Assembly: GCF_027557445.1 (NCBI RefSeq)
Contig: NZ_CP106841.1
Location: forward strand, 1,412,001-1,476,000
Direction: 5' to 3'
DNA length: 64,000 bases
Source: Paenalcaligenes faecalis
GTDB lineage: Bacteria > Pseudomonadota > Gammaproteobacteria > Burkholderiales > Burkholderiaceae_B
Below the pieces are notes generated by a model that saw only the letters and a program-made list of their open reading frames with translations, did not search any database and was not told the origin of the DNA. Made by a program: the position numbers and the translations under genes. The number at the start of each line of letters is the position of its first letter. The first letter of the stretch is position 1. Positions 37,046 through 51,831 of this stretch are shown here, in pieces.

Positions 37046-37141
37046 TGGCGGAAGGTAGCAGGAGTCGAACCTACCTAGGAGTGTCTAACACCCCCAACTG
37101 GGTTTGAAGCCCAGCCGCATCACCAGACACGAATACCTTCC
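37046..37141 (-). tRNA. selC: tRNA-Sec (UGA anticodon TCA)
   Basis: Read on the minus strand, the 96-base gene starts GGAAGGTA and ends TACCTTCC-G-CCA, an 8-bp acceptor stem as in bacterial tRNA-Sec. The anticodon stem CTGGG/CCCAG frames CTTCAAA with anticodon TCA at 37107-37105. A long variable arm (GGGTGTT-AG-ACACTCC region) and a 5-bp T stem with loop TTCGACT follow; CCA is encoded. It lies between selB and selD on the same strand and is probably processed from their transcript. Confidence 0.97.
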
Positions 37142-43079: not shown

Positions 43080-46000
43080 TTATACCTTTTCCACGTTGAC
43101 TAAGAAGGACTTAAATTCTGGTGTCTGTGAATTACCATCACCCACAAAAGGTGTCAGCGTATTCGCCAAGAAACCAGGTTTAGTCACCCCAGAGAAGCCC
43201 CAGTGAATCGGGATCCCAATATGATGCACACGTTTGCCATCGATATCCAAGCCACGAATACGTTTAGTTACCACTGCCTTGGCTTTGATGTAGCCACGGT
43301 TAGAGGATACTTTTACTGTATCGCCTTCTTTGATACCGAGCTCGCCCGCTAATTCCGCACCGATCTCCACAAACTGCTGTGGTTGCACGATGGCGTTTAG
43401 TTGAACGTGTTTAGTCCAGTAATGGAAATGCTCCGTTAAGCGGTAAGTGGTTGCCGCATAAGGGAATTTATCCGAAGTGCCGAACTGCTCCCAGTCACCG
43501 TCAAACACGCGCGCTGCAGGGTTACTTGTGGCGTTTTTGTTTTCTTTAAACAAAGGGTTGTAACCAAGCGGTGTTTCGAAAGGCTCATAGTGAACAGGGA
43601 ATGGGCCTTCAGCCATACCTTTACGTGCAAAGAAACGTGCTACGCCCTCGGGGTTCATAATGAATGGCCCCATACCATCGCGCGGCTGCTCATCTGCCTT
43701 AAAGTCAGGAACGTCTGCCCCGCCCCACTTTTTGCCATCCCAGTGGACGAGCGAGCGAGTTGGGTCAAATGGATTCCCATCTAAGTCACAGGAAGCACGG
43801 TTATATAGCACACGGCGGTTTGCTGGCCATGCCCATGCCCACTTTAAGGTTTGACCTACACCAGTAGGATCACTGTTATCACGGCGAGCCATCATATTTC
43901 CGGCCTCAGTCCATGATCCAGCATAAATCCAACAGCCACCTAAGGTCGTACCGTCATCACGCATTTCTGCAAAGCTAGCAAGCTGTTCTCCGGCTTTACG
44001 GATCACATCCCCATTCGCATTACGTAAATCAACCAATGCTCTACCGTTTAACTCTTTAGCCAATTCCTCGGCAGTTGGGTCATTCGGATTGAAGTATGGC
44101 CAATGTAAATTGACGATAGGATCTGGGTACGCACCACCTTCTTCTTTGTAAAGAGTCGCGATGGCTTGATACAGGCGAGCCATAATCTCGATGTCAGTTT
44201 TAGCCTCTCCTGGTGGTTCGGCGGCTTTCCAGTGCCACTGTAACCAGCGCCCTGAGTTCACTAGCGCACCCTCTTCTTCGGCAAAACAAGAAGTGGGTAA
44301 GCGGAAGACCTCAGTTTGGATATCAGCAGTATTAACGTCGTTGTACTCACCCACATTACGCCAGAACTCAGAGGTTTCCGTTACCAATGGATCCATGATG
44401 ACCATGAATTTCAGCTTGGAGAAGCCTTTAAGTAATTTCGCTTTGTTGGGGGCCGCAGCCAAGGGGTTAAAGCCCTGACAGATATAACCGTTAACCTTAC
44501 CCTGATTCATGAGCTCGTAGGTCTGCAACATATCGTACAGTTTGTCGAGCTTAGGCAAGTAATCAAACGCATAATTGTTTGACTCTGTGGCATGGTCGCC
44601 CCACCACGCTTTCATCAAGCTTACGTGGAACTTTTTGTAATTGCTCCAGTAACTAAGCTGATTAGGACGTAGCTGTTTAGGTGCACGTGCTGCGATATAA
44701 GCATCAAAGTCTTGCTCAGCCTCGTTGGCCAATGTCATGTAACCAGGCAATAGGTTAGACATTAAGCCCAAGTCAGTTAGACCCTGAATGTTGGAGTGTC
44801 CACGCAGTGCATTCATACCGCCACCAGCGATACCAATGTTACCTAAGAGCAACTGCATCATCGCCCCAGTACGAATAATCTGGGATCCGATAGAGTGCTG
44901 AGTCCAACCCAATGCGTACAAAATCGTGCCAGCACGATCAGGAGTAGAGGTTGAAGCCAATAATTCACACACCTGATTGAATTTATCAATCGGCGTACCA
45001 CAAACACGATTCACCATTTCAGGTGTATAGCGTTCGTAGTGTTTTTTCAATAACTGATAGACACAACGAGGATTTTGCAGCGTACGGTCTACCACCACCA
45101 TGCCATCTGCGTCTCGTTCGTAATCCCATGAGTCTTTATTGTAGGTACGTTTTTCTTCGTCGTAACCGGAGAAAATTCCGTCGTCGAAATCAAAGTCTTC
45201 ACGCACAACAAATGAGAAGTCCGTGTAATTACGTACGTACTCGTGTTGGATTTTGTCGTTATCTAGTAAGTATTTGATCACACCACCCAGGAACACAATA
45301 TCGGTTCCAGTACGGATAGGCGCGTATAAGTCCGACACGGAGGCCGAACGGGTAAAGCGAGGATCAACTACGATTAATTTTGCATTGTTATGAGCTTTGG
45401 CTTCAGTAACCCATTTAAAACCACACGGGTGAGCTTCTGCCGCATTACCGCCCATAATTAAGACCACATCGGCGTTTTTGATGTCGACCCAATGGTTCGT
45501 CATCGCACCTCGGCCAAACGTCGGGGCAAGACCTGCCACCGTCGGACCGTGTCAAACGCGTGCTTGGTTATCGAATGCAAGCATTCCTAAGGTACGAGCA
45601 ACCTTGTGGGTGATATAGCCCACCTCGTTACTACTGGCAGATGCCGCCAACATACCTGTTGTAGTCCAACGGTTAACTGTTTTACCGTCATCCGTTTGCT
45701 GGACAAAGTTTGCATCGCGGTCTTCTTTCATGAGTTTCGCGATACGCGTCAAAGCCTCATCCCAAGAGATACGTTTCCACGTATCGGAACCGGGCGCGCG
45801 GTACTCGGGGTATTTTAGGCGATTTGGACTGTGGATGAAATCAACCAAGCCTGCACCTTTAGGACAAAGTGTCCCACGGTTCACAGGGTGATCATGGTCA
45901 CCTTCGATGTGTACAACGCTAGGTTTGGCATTCATGCCACCATCACCTAAGCTATACAGTAAAATACCACAGGCCACAGAGCAATAAGGACAGGTACTGC

Positions 46001-46142
46001 GGGTTTCGACCATACGCGTCAACTTATATTGACGCGCGGCTGCCACCGCAGGTGTAGGTGCAACACCCAGCAAAGCCATACTAGACCCTGCGAGTGTCCC
46101 CCCTGTCACCTTAAAAAACTGGCGCCGACTCATGTTATTCAT
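43080..46142 (-). CDS. fdnG: Formate dehydrogenase alpha subunit, selenocysteine- and molybdopterin-containing
   Basis: One gene of 1020 residues read through an in-frame UGA at 45554-45552 (residue 197). The flanks [23 protein letters not shown] correspond to the FdnG/FdoG active site, where Sec binds the Mo or W of bis-MGD. A twin-arginine signal [11 protein letters not shown] (5-15) sends it to the periplasm, and a [4Fe-4S] motif CPYCSVACG with a further Cys follows (about 50). It oxidises formate to CO2. GGAGAG precedes the ATG. A SECIS hairpin directly follows the UGA. First gene of the fdnG-fdxH-gamma operon. Confidence 0.97.
45519..45554 (-). promoter_or_regulatory. UGA selenocysteine codon and bacterial SECIS element in fdnG
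   Basis: Immediately 3' of the UGA the mRNA folds as CGG-[U]-GGCA, loop GGUCU, UGCC-CCG, with a lower GC-A/A-CG extension. A GGUCU apical loop and a single bulged U below four base pairs are the features recognised by SelB in the E. coli fdhF/fdnG elements. Confidence 0.93.
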
Positions 46143-46716: not shown

Positions 46717-46813
46717 TTGACTCTTTTATTAAACTCTACTAACGCTAATTAGCATTTACTTGCAGCCTTGCCATCTATACTTAAATCACCACGGATTTAA
46801 TTAAAGGAATACC

Positions 46814-47251
46814 ATGTTGAAAACAAAAGCACGCTCTATTGTGATCAGTACCGCGTTATGTTTGGGTTTAGGCGGTGGCTTAGCCCAGGCTCAGCTATTG
46901 GATAATGTAAAAAATGCATTAGGCTCAGGCCCAACCCCGGCTGCATCCACAGCTATCCCCGGGATGCCAGCCTTAAGCTCCGTAGGCATAGAAAACATCA
47001 GCGGAGTGCTTCAATACTGCATTAAAAACAACTATGTCGATAACAATGTGGCTGGCATCAAAGATAAGCTGCTTGGCCAGCTAGGAGGCGAGGAACAAGC
47101 CAAAGCAAATCCTAGTTATCAAGAAGGACTAAATGGTATTTTAGGCGGCAAGAGTGGGCAAAAAATGGAGTTATCAGGTGGTGGTTTAAAACAACAGTTA
47201 ACCACTCAAGTCTGCGATCAAGTCCTAAAATATGGTGAGTCATTGATTTAA
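46814..47251 (+). CDS. DUF2501 (YjjA-like) exported protein
   Basis: 145 residues with a cleavable signal peptide (SIVISTALCLGLGGGLAQAQ). The mature part has LLDNVKNALGSG, ISGVLQYCIKNNYV, GVKDKLLGQLGGE-like and a C-terminal LTTQVCDQVLKYGESL; the two cysteines could form a disulfide. This is the pattern of DUF2501 proteins such as E. coli YjjA, whose function is unknown. AAAGGA precedes the ATG. It is a single-gene unit ended by the hairpin at 47252. Confidence 0.85.
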   Translation: MLKTKARSIVISTALCLGLGGGLAQAQLLDNVKNALGSGPTPAASTAIPGMPALSSVGIENISGVLQYCIKNNYVDNNVAGIKDKLLGQLGGEEQAKANPSYQEGLNGILGGKSGQKMELSGGGLKQQLTTQVCDQVLKYGESLI

Positions 47252-47283
47252 AAAGGCTTATCCAAGAAAATGGATAAGCCTTT
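47252..47283. terminator. Bidirectional rho-independent terminator
   Basis: AAAGGCTTATCCA and TGGATAAGCCTTT form a 13-bp stem with a 6-base loop, flanked by A and T tracts, between the convergent DUF2501 and M48 protease genes. Confidence 0.85.
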
Positions 47284-47329
47284 ACCATAAGCGAAAGGGC
47301 TACGTTTTATAAGAAACAGCAGCTATTAT

Positions 47330-48727
47330 TTACTTAATTGAACGATAAAGTGGAGCCCAATTTCCTCTTAGACCTACCTGAGTTTTTGCCGCATCCTCTG
47401 CATATTTACATCTTATGGTAATGGCTGGATCTTTAATCTGATTTAACGAGCACCCTGATTGTGATAGCAACATGGGGCCTAAGCTCAGGTTATGTCGTCT
47501 GCCTAAATAGTACTCTACTGGCAATAACTCATCTGTTGGGCCTAAGTCTTGGTGCACTCTTTCAATGCCTTTTTCAATAGCTGCTTTATCCCCCTGTTGA
47601 TCTAAATGGGCATAGAGAATCTTTGCCGCTGACAGAGTTAGCTGATCACTTTGTATCACCAGTTGCTTATAGTGCTGCTTTTTCTTAGCATCTCCCAAAA
47701 GGTCATACACTACAAACAAGCGACTATTTATTGCGGCATCAAACTGCAAACCAGCTGGACGAGACTTACGCTCAAACTTACGCAAGGCATCTCGAAGCTG
47801 CTTAATATTCGGATTAACCAACTCATTCATAGCAAATAAGTACTGAATAACATCGAATCGATGCCGTAGAGGCCCTGCTGGAGCATAGATTTCATTAATA
47901 TCCATGTCATTTTTCTCAGCCTCCTCTAAGGTTAGACTCACCCTATCATCCGCACTTAAATACGTCATAGGTAGGCCACCTATCAAATTTTTACCACATG
48001 CTATAAAGTTAACATAAGTCATATCACCTTTTTTCTGATAGCACTGTGGCTCATCTTCAGGGTTCGTTTTATTTGCTGCCGATAAGTATTGGCTATACTG
48101 CCCTATTTTTTGTAGGGCCATACGCAAACCCTCTTGAGAAAAGCCTGCTTTGCTTAGTACATTCACAGCAAAAGAATCTGCTTTTATCTCATGTTCTGCA
48201 TTCCACTTCCCATAAATCAACTGATGTGCGCTTTTATCTAATGTGCCATCAAAGTCAGTTAATAAATACCCATAACCTGTCAGATTGCCCGCCATACGCC
48301 CTAAGGTAATAGATACCCCTTGCGCTAAGGTTTTTGCGCTGTCTCTGTTATATACATGACTCATTTCATGTGCAATCAGAGCTGCCACCTCATCATCTGA
48401 GCTAGCTTGAGCTAAGACTCCTGTGCTTAGTACTATAGTGCTATGAGAAACAGTGTAAGCTTCGTAACCACTAAATGAGTCCACAACCACCACACAATTA
48501 CAGGGTTTACCATGAGCTTGCTCTAGCTTTTCTCTCAACCCATTAACATAAAGCGCAACCTCTTCATCTTGAACGACTGTGCGATTTATTTTTAATAAAG
48601 CTTGCACATCAGACTTGTAAATCTCAGCATCATACGCTGTCAGTGTCACTCGTTCTCCCGTGCCCGGTAGTACAGCACAGCCTGTAAAAGAAAGAGCTAA
48701 TAAAACAATACTAATTAATCGTTTCAT
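47330..48727 (-). CDS. M48-family metalloprotease lipoprotein
   Basis: The leader MKRLISIVLLALSFTGC ends in a lipobox (Cys17, Ala at +2, outer-membrane sorting). The zinc motif HEMSH is at 120-124, preceded by AALIA, and the third ligand is in EIKADSFAV about 65 residues later, so the catalytic site is intact. The C-terminal half is helical without obvious TPR repeats and has extra cysteines near the end. The ATG used overlaps the stop of the upstream small gene (ATGA). It is the last gene of the CHASE2/small-protein/M48 operon. Role: probably periplasmic proteolysis or outer-membrane quality control, inferred. Confidence 0.85.
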   Translation of the reverse strand: MKRLISIVLLALSFTGCAVLPGTGERVTLTAYDAEIYKSDVQALLKINRTVVQDEEVALYVNGLREKLEQAHGKPCNCVVVVDSFSGYEAYTVSHSTIVLSTGVLAQASSDDEVAALIAHEMSHVYNRDSAKTLAQGVSITLGRMAGNLTGYGYLLTDFDGTLDKSAHQLIYGKWNAEHEIKADSFAVNVLSKAGFSQEGLRMALQKIGQYSQYLSAANKTNPEDEPQCYQKKGDMTYVNFIACGKNLIGGLPMTYLSADDRVSLTLEEAEKNDMDINEIYAPAGPLRHRFDVIQYLFAMNELVNPNIKQLRDALRKFERKSRPAGLQFDAAINSRLFVVYDLLGDAKKKQHYKQLVIQSDQLTLSAAKILYAHLDQQGDKAAIEKGIERVHQDLGPTDELLPVEYYLGRRHNLSLGPMLLSQSGCSLNQIKDPAITIRCKYAEDAAKTQVGLRGNWAPLYRSIK

Positions 48728-49107
48728 TTTGCGCATACCTCACCTACACCACGAACCGCTTTAGATGTTGACTCATTTGCTAATGTTGTAGGTAAATCGG
48801 AAGGCAATGTTTTACACGCATCCACTACATGCCTCTGATTTGTTTTAACAAAACTAGGTCTAATTAAATAGCTTTTTCCTTGATGACGAAAAATATACCC
48901 CTGCTCTTTTTTACTCAGCTGCGCTTTTAATGGTAGCTTTACCTCTCCTAGATCAAGCATTTTTATCATGTTTTTTGAGGACATATCTTGTACATATGCC
49001 CTCTCCATATTTGGAATTTCAATAATGGTGTGATTTTGAGCCCAAGCAACCCCGCTAAAAAACAAATTCAAAAAAGCAATACAGACTATCTTTTTCATAT
49101 AAACCAT
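48724..49107 (-). CDS. Small secreted protein of unknown function
   Basis: 127 residues. A signal peptide (KKIVCIAFLNLFFSGVAWA) precedes a mature domain of about 100 residues, with IEIPNMERAYVQDM, LDLGEVKLPLKAQL, a GYIFRHQGKSYLIRPSF strand pair and two late cysteines (ACKTL and GEVCAK) that may pair. AAGGAG lies 8 bases before the ATG at 49107, which overlaps the upstream stop (TGATG). I do not recognise the family. Tight coupling to the CHASE2-like gene and the M48 lipoprotein suggests that they act together in the periplasm. Confidence 0.75.
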   Translation of the reverse strand: MVYMKKIVCIAFLNLFFSGVAWAQNHTIIEIPNMERAYVQDMSSKNMIKMLDLGEVKLPLKAQLSKKEQGYIFRHQGKSYLIRPSFVKTNQRHVVDACKTLPSDLPTTLANESTSKAVRGVGEVCAK

Positions 49108-50633
49108 CACTTTCTCTCCTTAGATAATATGAGAATATGCTCCTTACGTATTTTTACGATATTTGGTAGCAAAGGTATTAACGCAATCATTGATAGCCAG
49201 CCCTCTAATGCAGCATTTAAAAAATGATAGAAAAAAGCATAAAAAATTAAAATCACACTCAAATAAAATATGAACCAAACCAGCTGTCTTACCAACTTAT
49301 AACGAAGAAAATGAATAACAACGAAATTTTCTTTACTTAAATAGTGCTCGCTACGCTGAATTAAAATCAAGATCCAACCACGCTCTAAACAAAATAATCG
49401 ACTAGAGAGTATCCAAACACTCCATAACCAAAAGCCCCACATAGCCGCTACCATCAAGCGGATTTCTTTTTCATAAATATAAGAATTTTGCCTATCCATT
49501 AAATTAACTAATGCCATAGCATGATGTAATACTCCTGCAATCTTTCCATAATTTGGAGTACTGTGAAAATCATTTAAACTAGGGATATCAGAACCAAATA
49601 GCACCACATATGGCTCACCCTCCGCTAAATACGGGGGAGCTAGTGGTATATGGGTGGTATAAATATCCGCAGCATTCACAACATAAAAAGGCAGGCAATT
49701 CATATCTAATTGGGCTGGGTTTGATTGAATGCCTAATGCTCGCCAAAATGTACTGCCTATTGTTTTCAACAGCAGACTAAAAGTAGAAGATTGACAATCC
49801 AATACGAGAGGATCAGTATTTCTTTCCAACGCCAAATTTGCTGGGCTGCTTGTAGGATTAGACAGAGAAGCTGGTAAAACTTGTCTTTCCCACTGGATAC
49901 TTAAGGCATTCTCACCTTGATTTGTTTCCAGAGGGACGCATACGCCTGATTTTTGGACACGACACCATGCGTCATATAACTGAGTAGCAGGGAGCCTAGT
50001 AAAATGAGGTTGATCTCCTCCTCGCCCATCAGGTAGTAAAAACTCTTTATAGAGAGGATATGAGCCCTCTGGACCCTCCCAGGCAGTCGGTACCCAGTTC
50101 GCTTCAGGTAGCTCTCGATATATATCCTGAGACAGGATCAAATCTTTTAGTCCCCCTGCCGCCATATATACAGGAGGTCCTTGATCTACTTTTATGGATC
50201 TAAATGCATCATTTAAGCCGTAAATATCTTGTATTTCGCCCCGAAGGTTTTCTAAAAAAACATCATAAAAAATGGCCTCAGGAGGGTAAGAAAAATGATG
50301 CCCCCCTCCTTGTGATAAGGCTTGTATTAACGTGGCGTGCTCATCATAAGAAATTGGCCAATCATTAGAGAAAACCCAATCAACATTAGCCTCATGTAAC
50401 CTTTCTAGTGTTTTTTTATTAAATAAGACTACAGTTATGGGCTGTCTTTCAATAGGATATAAAATAGAGCGATAACGACTTATCTCCTTTGCCAATGCTT
50501 GATCCGCGGCAACTGAAATACCAAAAGGATTTCCCAACGTTAACCATAAGCCCAGAAAAAAATAAAAAAAAAGCACGCCAATTTGGTATTTTTTATAAAA
50601 TCCAGCGCAATTTATAAATAAAAGACTAAACAC
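49107..50633 (-). CDS. CHASE2-like membrane protein without an output domain
   Basis: An N-terminal helix (about 18-38) is followed by a long periplasmic region with CHASE2-like landmarks: ITVVLFNKKTLERL near the start, PISYDEHATLIQALSQ, PEAIFYDVFLENLRG, PYVVLFGSDIP, and NYGKIAGVLHHAMALVNLM before the membrane. Several helices follow (about 395-430 and 450-495), then a short basic tail. CHASE2 is normally fused to a kinase, cyclase or GGDEF domain; none is here. The DNA is AT-richer than the surroundings. First gene of a three-gene operon. Function unknown; a stand-alone envelope sensor or scaffold is inferred. Confidence 0.65.
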   Translation of the reverse strand: MFSLLFINCAGFYKKYQIGVLFFYFFLGLWLTLGNPFGISVAADQALAKEISRYRSILYPIERQPITVVLFNKKTLERLHEANVDWVFSNDWPISYDEHATLIQALSQGGGHHFSYPPEAIFYDVFLENLRGEIQDIYGLNDAFRSIKVDQGPPVYMAAGGLKDLILSQDIYRELPEANWVPTAWEGPEGSYPLYKEFLLPDGRGGDQPHFTRLPATQLYDAWCRVQKSGVCVPLETNQGENALSIQWERQVLPASLSNPTSSPANLALERNTDPLVLDCQSSTFSLLLKTIGSTFWRALGIQSNPAQLDMNCLPFYVVNAADIYTTHIPLAPPYLAEGEPYVVLFGSDIPSLNDFHSTPNYGKIAGVLHHAMALVNLMDRQNSYIYEKEIRLMVAAMWGFWLWSVWILSSRLFCLERGWILILIQRSEHYLSKENFVVIHFLRYKLVRQLVWFIFYLSVILIFYAFFYHFLNAALEGWLSMIALIPLLPNIVKIRKEHILILSKERK

Positions 50634-50743
50634 TTAGATTAGTAAAAATATATAAAATTAATGATACATTTTTTACTTTTATTAACATATAGCCTATTAT
50701 GGTTATCACCTATTTCTATTTTCAATAAAATATGAATTATCCA

Positions 50744-51721
50744 TCACCTAATAATAAAAGCCTCGCTATGGACTCGAAGGCGCTTCCCTAAGCGCTGTTC
50801 TAGTCCGGTCTGCAGATGATTCAATAGCCCAGAAGGCCCACAAAACCAAAGCTCACAGCACATCTCTGGATCAGAAGATAAGTGTATGTTCTCTATGTGC
50901 AAGCGCTGATTTTGAGCACTGTCATGCACAAACAATTGAATGTTCGGCAGGTGTTGAATACGCTGTTGCAGTTGAACTAAAGCATGACTGTGTTCTGCGT
51001 GATGCAAGCAATAATGTAGTTGTGCCTGCAATGGGCGAGGATTAGCTACTAATGCATCTAACCACGCAAGAAATGGCGTAATTCCTATGCCACCCGCCAC
51101 CCATAACTGTTGGCACTGTTCATCTACACGTGACAGGTCAAAACAGCCATAAGGACCTTCGATTTGAAAAAACTGTCGAGGTTTTAACGTCTGTGCTAAG
51201 TGCCGGGTGTGATCTCCTAAGGCCTTAATATGAAAATCAATATAACCATCTGGATTGGGAGCACTTGCAATAGTGAAAGGGTGCCCTCCTTCTGTTTTAT
51301 CAAAACATAAAGTGAGGACCAACATGACTAATGCTGCATATATAGCCCATTCTCCTAGTGACTTAGCTAATGAGACATAATCAGAGAATATCTGCATGGT
51401 TGGAACTTTAGCGGCCCGATTAGCATTACCTATCAAGGCCACAATCAGCGGTTTAGAAAGCTTAATCAACCAATGCAGGGCCCCAAACACCACGGCCCAG
51501 ATACCCGCCCATTTATGAAGCTGATACACCTGATCCATACCGTTGACAATGCGTTCAGCCCAAACAGGACGACTTGAGACAATCATCACCAAGCCCATTA
51601 AGGCCATAGCGATGACGCCCGTGTAATACAGCAAATAGCTACGTAGCTGCCATAAAAAATCGCCACTTTCGATAGGATTTACCAAATGCAAAATGAATGA
51701 ATAATGAACCCAATCAAACAT
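50744..51721 (-). pseudogene. Ferric-reductase-like flavocytochrome with apparent in-frame internal deletion
   Basis: Residues 1-138 are the first half of a ferric-reductase transmembrane domain, with the helix carrying one heme pair H69 and H83 (LHKWAGIWAVVFGALH). At about 139-141 the helix VMLVLTLC runs directly into FDKTEGGHPFTIASAP, the FAD-binding motif that normally lies some 150 residues further on. The second heme-histidine helix and the first flavin-domain strands are missing. The NAD(P)H part (WVAGGIGITPFLAWL, LWFCGPSGL) is complete. 325 residues against about 440 usually. Reading frame is kept, so it may be expressed, but electron transfer is unlikely. Confidence 0.7.
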
Positions 51722-51831
51722 AAATAAAAACGATTCTTATTCGTATTTTTTCAATTTAGGCTTGGCTCTTGTGCTGCCCCCCTTCTGGCTTAGGCTTGAC
51801 CTATAGCCTTATTTACTTTTATCATTAGCTT

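Follow-up and report, generated by a model that had tools for sequence, protein, structure and literature searches.

In a 64,000-nucleotide stretch of the Paenalcaligenes faecalis genome (contig NZ_CP106841.1, positions 1,412,001 to 1,476,000; hereafter the window, whose coordinates are used throughout), three adjacent genes encode a CHASE2 membrane protein without a cytoplasmic output domain, a small exported SH3-like protein and an M48 zinc-metallopeptidase of lipoprotein type. Since these three genes travel together in many unrelated bacteria, their products very probably act as one cell-envelope device. The genes are:

49107..50633, minus strand: CHASE2 membrane protein without cytoplasmic output domain, 508 amino acids (aa), GTG start uncertain, PF05226
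48724..49107, minus strand: small exported SH3-like protein, 127 aa from the ATG of TGATG, family present in 80/80 loci
47330..48736, minus strand: M48 zinc-metallopeptidase lipoprotein, 468 aa, PF01435

A TGATG, preceded by AAGGAG, contains both the stop codon of CHASE2 and the start codon of the small gene, whose own stop overlaps one M48 start as ATGA; an in-frame ATG nine bases upstream of the latter is an alternative M48 start. Both overlaps had been pointed out in an earlier note on this DNA and were confirmed by reading the window sequence. An inverted repeat (47252-47283), noticed by eye and not reported by the terminator scan, lies between the convergent DUF2501 and M48 genes.

The set of loci used below is drawn from 84,980 species genomes, which were searched by CHASE2 alone (its alignment and one peptide pattern, HAMAL[DVE]NL); it comprises the best 80 of 101 confirmed loci and is rich in Pseudomonas. 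The small-protein family adjoins CHASE2 in all 80, and an M48 gene is present in 75, with HExxH in 74; the exception is the disrupted M48 gene of Candidatus Burkholderia verschuerenii (L100:6225-7532). The co-occurrence of the three families on which the earlier note had staked its operon is thus borne out, and the three genes form one conserved unit. At most 60 nucleotides separate the CHASE2 stop from a possible start of the small gene (77 of 78 loci), and likewise the small-gene stop from a possible M48 start (69 of 73). The model of the small protein was refined on open reading frames (ORFs) adjoining CHASE2; applied to the full set of 7,700 ORFs from the loci, it produced 84 matches, none of them outside the operon position. 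Two Thalassospira loci (L090 and L097) have the rotated order SH3-like, M48, CHASE2, with the genes still adjacent, while the closest relative of the unit, from an Alcaligenaceae bacterium (L016/L026), keeps the order of the window at identities of 34%, 33% and 37%.

The module spans Gammaproteobacteria, Alphaproteobacteria and one Desulfovibrio genome. A profile survey of the class matched 7 of 369 genomes, four with the full trio (the window genome, G349, G413 and G467), one cut by a contig end (G183), one with a divergent trio-like arrangement whose middle protein was missed by the model (G151/L142) and one of a form in which the CHASE2 protein is a cyclase (G187/L143). Matches were found in 13 of 150 Vibrionaceae genomes, in 14 of 149 Pseudomonas genomes and in 2 of 101 relatives of the window genome, the window genome counted in. 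The 12 Vibrionaceae stretches examined comprise ten M48 trios, one caspase type and one cyclase form, six of them repeating the 80-locus set (L128=L040, L129=L076, L130=L015, L132=L105, L133=L056 and L138=L083).

Over 68 loci (L015, L017, L058, L070, L092, L093, L099, L100, L102, L103 and five M48-less loci being omitted) the three proteins agree closely in their pairwise distances, with correlations of 0.95-0.96 that are due in part to shared ancestry and that none of 1000 permutations reached. The large alignments cited below omit near-identical rows, L015 and L017, that of CHASE2 also L092 and L093, and that of M48 also L058, L070, L099, L100, L102 and L103. As a control, 60 ordinary CHASE2 loci were hand-picked from the places found by a Pfam search (20 short-frame and 40 others, not a random sample). 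Only five have an M48 gene within about 5 kb, which implies that M48 adjacency is not general to CHASE2 proteins; all five are CHASE2-cyclases, four of them with an SH3 protein in between. Clustering of the neighbours over the loci gave no common neighbour besides the three genes and no recurrent cytoplasmic partner; porin- and receptor-like genes, named by eye, recur in Pseudomonas loci.

The CHASE2 assignment is sound, with a PF05226 match (E=1.7e-12) of 47.9 bits against a Pfam gathering cut-off of 26.3. Its parts are:

50532..50588, minus strand: first membrane helix, residues 16-34 (AlphaFold helix 16-34; hydropathy peak 16-36)
49464..50531, minus strand: predicted periplasmic CHASE2 domain, residues 35-390 (AlphaFold)
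49137..49463, minus strand: three C-terminal membrane helices, residues 391-499 (AlphaFold model and hydropathy)

AlphaFold places the membrane helices at residues 16-34, 391-417, 437-472 and 479-499, hydropathy having also been examined, and models the periplasmic part as an alpha/beta domain; for the whole protein the mean predicted local distance difference test (pLDDT) is 80 and the predicted template modelling score (pTM) 0.84. One N-terminal and three C-terminal membrane helices are the CHASE2 topology described in parts of PMC3501461 and PMC5192318; the C-terminal helices, called extra in the earlier note, therefore belong to the usual plan, and the part that is missing is the cytoplasmic enzyme. 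Nine residues follow the last helix, which leaves the protein outside the definition of a CHASE2 signalling receptor with an output domain, and a Pfam scan detected no domain besides CHASE2 in the window protein or in any of 66 relatives, so that the stand-alone state of this CHASE2 is confirmed. Cys224, Cys232, Cys280 and Cys313 are kept in 56, 56, 61 and 61 of the 66 relatives, respectively. A PDB fold search with the model gave no convincing match (Z 4.0 at most, Foldseek E no lower than 0.06) and phmmer against PDB sequences returned nothing for CHASE2; with no solved relative found, no ligand can be inferred. NCBIfam held no useful family for this protein or for the small one. It is the sole CHASE2 match of its own genome at E up to 1e-8.

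The N-terminus of the small protein resembles a signal peptide in the sequence. Further features are:

48838..49032, minus strand: SH3-like barrel, residues 26-90 (AlphaFold, pLDDT about 84-95; six strands at residues 26-82, pLDDT around 90)
48814-48816, minus strand: invariant Cys98 (68/68 aligned members)
48733..48735, minus strand: invariant Cys125, near the C-terminus (68/68 aligned members)

From residue 91 onward the AlphaFold model is loose (pLDDT about 52-62), and a G-x-G-x-x-C-like tail ends most members of the family. In the fold search bacterial SH3 domains were prominent among the best matches, at a Z of about 5 that lies in the noise range of the tool. The window copy has no significant Pfam match, SH3_3 (PF08239) included, and two of 68 family members match SH3_3 at E up to 0.1. 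The family model matches, at 2.9e-6, the middle protein of a CHASE2-cyclase trio (L154), a protein that is SH3_3 by Pfam (29.0 against a cut-off of 27). Run over 369 genomes, with no CHASE2 in the query, it yielded 11 matches, four strong and seven weak. Every strong match lies in a stand-alone trio. Three of the weak ones lie in CHASE2-cyclase/SH3/M48 trios of three genomes (G345, G418 and G435), one of which was already known from the control loci; three are SH3-looking proteins by eye (G336, G221 and G375), one of them (L236) adjoining a CHASE2-cyclase without M48, and the last (G359) looks spurious. The protein is here called SH3-like, although not filed as an SH3_3 member. Its earlier description as of unknown family holds insofar as the window copy matches no Pfam family, and fails insofar as fold and family model suggest a recognizable kind.

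The third protein matches PF01435 (E=3.2e-15; 56.9 bits against a Pfam cut-off of 20.3) and has the HExxH and the downstream Glu ligand that define an M48 peptidase. Its features are:

48677..48679, minus strand: lipobox cysteine Cys20 (Cys in 48/53 relatives)
48356..48370, minus strand: HEMSH zinc site, His123, Glu124 and His127 (invariant in 53/53)
48188-48190, minus strand: third zinc ligand Glu183 (invariant in 53/53)
47960..47962, minus strand: Tyr259 at the plug-histidine position of the M48 HPx4R motif (relatives: His in 49/53, Tyr in 3/53)

The earlier identification of an M48 metalloprotease with an intact HEMSH site is upheld. Asp187 is likewise invariant in the 53 aligned relatives, and the C-terminal Cys429 and Cys443 are present in 53 and 52 of them. 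The residue at +2 governs the sorting of lipoproteins to the outer membrane; because the lipobox-like FTGC ending at Cys20 is followed by Ala at +2, the protein is predicted to be sorted there. The active-site plug histidine of BepA, regulatory and not catalytic, is part of an HPx4R motif shared by the M48 enzymes of E. coli, and the data point to a deregulated BepA when this histidine is lost (PMC7950410). At the same position Tyr occurs in the window protein, in its nearest relative and in L098, all three of which keep the Arg six residues on. Given the replacement by Tyr259, the regulation of this particular M48 enzyme may differ.

Two further forms of the module bear on how it may work. 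In the cyclase form, a CHASE2-guanylate/adenylate cyclase is followed by an SH3 protein and M48 (L139, L143, L154, L159, L160, L161, L234 and L239); part kinds and order are those of the window operon, but a cyclase is present, the M48 protein is shorter (about 280-320 aa) and the middle protein is mostly longer. In the caspase form M48 is absent, and caspase (Peptidase_C14) genes are found nearby (L027, L028, L029, L030, L031 and L131); their products include a protein of 1384-1713 aa, with WD40-type matches in both Pfam-scanned loci. Directly downstream of one caspase-type module is an alpha-2-macroglobulin-type gene (L029:9909-15215), and L031 has a gene of the same length at this position. 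Three M48-type loci (L045 from Methylotuvimicrobium buryatense 5G, L063 and L084) also carry an extracytoplasmic function (ECF)-type sigma factor and a caspase gene. In two of them these form, beside the module, a compact cassette of sigma factor, further gene and caspase gene (L045:3824-6434 and L084:5856-8576); the further gene is anti-sigma-like by eye and has no Pfam match in L045.

A quick tree of 80 rows, with long branches flagged, a weak backbone and a root (cyclases outside) of our own choice, puts every stand-alone CHASE2 protein on the same side of a branch with support of 100. The six caspase-type rows form one group (SH-aLRT 99) and six cyclase-trio rows another (95). With the cyclases as outside, the caspase type falls among the M48 type, which suggests one replacement of the M48 type by the caspase type. 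As the caspase type forms a single branch, the linked protease varies whereas the CHASE2-SH3 pair is retained.

Read most simply, these data put the CHASE2-SH3 pair in control of envelope proteolysis or under its control. We tentatively propose a sensor-adaptor-protease switch confined to the envelope, in which the pair controls M48; the physical complex, the direction of control, the trigger and the substrate are what we infer. The inner-membrane CHASE2 receptor, with no enzyme inside, would pair with the soluble periplasmic SH3-like protein, a putative ligand or adaptor docking on the CHASE2 domain, and the pair would control the periplasm-facing zinc protease anchored as a lipoprotein. The trigger may be an envelope change, either in the state of the cell wall or outer membrane or in redox, through the conserved cysteine pairs. 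The altered CHASE2-SH3 complex would then free or recruit the protease, the output being proteolysis within the envelope instead of a cytoplasmic second messenger. This direction is favoured because the same protein offers no cytoplasmic signal receiver and because the pair persists without M48. An adaptor or ligand role of the SH3-like protein would fit the cyclase/SH3/M48 loci no less well than the role of substrate put forward in the earlier note. A wider version, to which we give less credence, holds that CHASE2 with an SH3-like partner could be a general controller of envelope proteases, working with a cyclase and its second messenger, with M48 alone and no cytoplasmic output, or with caspases and an ECF sigma/anti-sigma pair; the receptor of the window would have turned from a signal transmitter into a periplasm-confined proteolytic switch with an exchangeable protease.

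Several observations weigh against the proposed switch. The pairing of the genes also fits a protease that processes the sensor or the SH3-like protein, and the distance correlation loses some of its force through the shared ancestry mentioned above. The SH3 fold match is modest and the window protein matches no Pfam SH3 model. The caspase genes were found by proximity alone and may not be functional replacements of M48. In L236 (L236:6053-9758) a CHASE2-cyclase gene is followed by an SH3-like gene without M48, hence the protease is not obligatory; the upstream gene there is FecR-like by eye.

If the direction were reversed, M48 would activate or quality-control the receptor by trimming the SH3-like protein or the CHASE2 domain. 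The CHASE2-cyclase/SH3/M48 trios speak for this unlikely reading, as their clear cytoplasmic output makes an inward flow of information simplest in them, and the loose C-terminal part of the small protein, mostly with its G-x-G-x-x-C-like tail, is compatible with trimming; the stand-alone CHASE2, however, with its nine residues after the last helix, offers no cytoplasmic receiver. It is less likely still that the stand-alone CHASE2 uses its membrane helices to pass a signal to a partner encoded elsewhere, either a cytoplasmic enzyme or an ECF sigma/anti-sigma pair. The sigma factors and caspase genes of L045, L063 and L084 point that way, as does, in the caspase-type L029, a gene whose match to sigma-70 region 4 stays below threshold, but such genes are lacking near most loci, the sigma-factor cluster being found in 5 of 80, and neighbour clustering revealed no recurrent cytoplasmic partner.

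We consider it doubtful that the protease is a specialized BepA- or LoiP-like quality-control enzyme of the outer membrane, for which CHASE2 and the SH3-like protein would serve as scaffold and not as sensor. LoiP is lipoprotein-anchored, as is predicted for the window protein. With these two E. coli envelope proteases the window enzyme has in common the M48 domain, HExxH and the third Glu ligand, the solved relatives found by sequence are the M48 peptidase 3c37 and BepA, and C-terminal tetratricopeptide repeat (TPR) matches occur in some members of the family, in as many as 9 of 53 with one of the models. The window protein itself has no TPR match, and it differs by the Tyr for the plug histidine, by the C-terminal Cys pair and by NCBIfam scores far below both cut-offs (35 of 570 bits for BepA and 35.2 of 365 bits for LoiP); moreover, its own genome has two further M48 matches, and the pair stays in 5 of 80 loci without M48.

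A defence or programmed-death system is very improbable. Caspase-family genes lie beside 8 of 80 loci against none of the 60 ordinary CHASE2 loci, a comparison biased because the caspase model was built from these same loci. Caspase-CHASE2 fusions are described in Trichodesmium and in EACC2 systems (PMC3501461 and PMC8195603, in part); they likewise combine CHASE2 with a protease, but this is a caspase within one protein, whereas the module has separate genes and a metalloprotease. PADLOC gave no match for any of the three window proteins, its caspase matches showing merely that caspases are in its library. Chance neighbourhood, to which the patchy distribution (2 of 101 relatives) alone lends colour, is refuted by the conservation of the module across Gammaproteobacteria, Alphaproteobacteria and a Desulfovibrio genome.

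The operon of the window lies in a block delimited as follows:

46717..51811, no strand: block missing at the orthologous site of three congeners, made up of the DUF2501 gene, the operon of three genes and a ferric-reductase-like gene (approximate edges)

In the congeners G002, G004 and G005 no more than about 142-356 bp lie between the gene that borders the block on its left (46.7 kb) and the sequence that begins at 51.8 kb in the window. The third-position GC (GC3) of the CHASE2 gene is 0.303 and that of the M48 gene 0.341, the two lowest among the 35 window ORFs of at least 200 aa, whose median is 0.419. Low GC3 and the empty site support the transfer hinted at earlier from the AT-rich composition and fit acquisition of the block of about 5 kb here, the alternative being loss in the congeners. 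In a plasmid collection a 2.1 Mb Photobacterium replicon was the single record with the CHASE2 protein, so plasmid-borne modules are not the rule. Elsewhere in the window, two formate dehydrogenase alpha-subunit ORFs on the minus strand (45552-46142 and 43080-45539) are one frame with an in-frame TGA at 45552-45554, and a tRNA-Sec gene (37046-37141, minus strand) lies near this frame (43080-46142); the alpha subunit is a selenoprotein.

A full-text literature search found, within the searched collection, no description of a CHASE2/SH3-like/M48 operon or of the CHASE2-cyclase/SH3/M48 trio, and the stand-alone CHASE2-SH3-M48 device is apparently undescribed. Two known systems come near it, each taken here from part of its source. 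In S. meliloti, sensing by the CHASE2 cyclases CyaD1, CyaD2 and CyaK involves the outer-membrane protein NsrA (PMC13001267); a CHASE2 receptor with an envelope partner is common to both, but those cyclases make cAMP and their partner is an outer-membrane barrel, whereas the module has no enzyme in the receptor, an SH3-like protein and a protease. The BiofilmReg operon of Burkholderia contaminans encodes a response regulator, a LysM-FecR exported protein, a CHASE2 histidine kinase and a DUF4136 protein (PMC5192318). There too a CHASE2 receptor gene lies beside genes for an exported protein with a cell-wall-type domain and another exported protein; that operon differs in having a kinase with a response regulator, in lacking a protease and in carrying LysM-FecR in place of the SH3-like protein. 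The window operon has no adjoining CHASE2 histidine kinase, response regulator or LysM-FecR genes.

CHASE2 is widespread, a Pfam search having matched 151 of 274 sampled genomes of the class, and its recognition targets were largely unknown according to a 2016 paper (PMC5192318, in part). An output-less CHASE2 family that keeps an exported partner and a protease points to this partner as the binding target of CHASE2. If the proposed switch is true, regulated M48 envelope proteases would gain a dedicated membrane controller.

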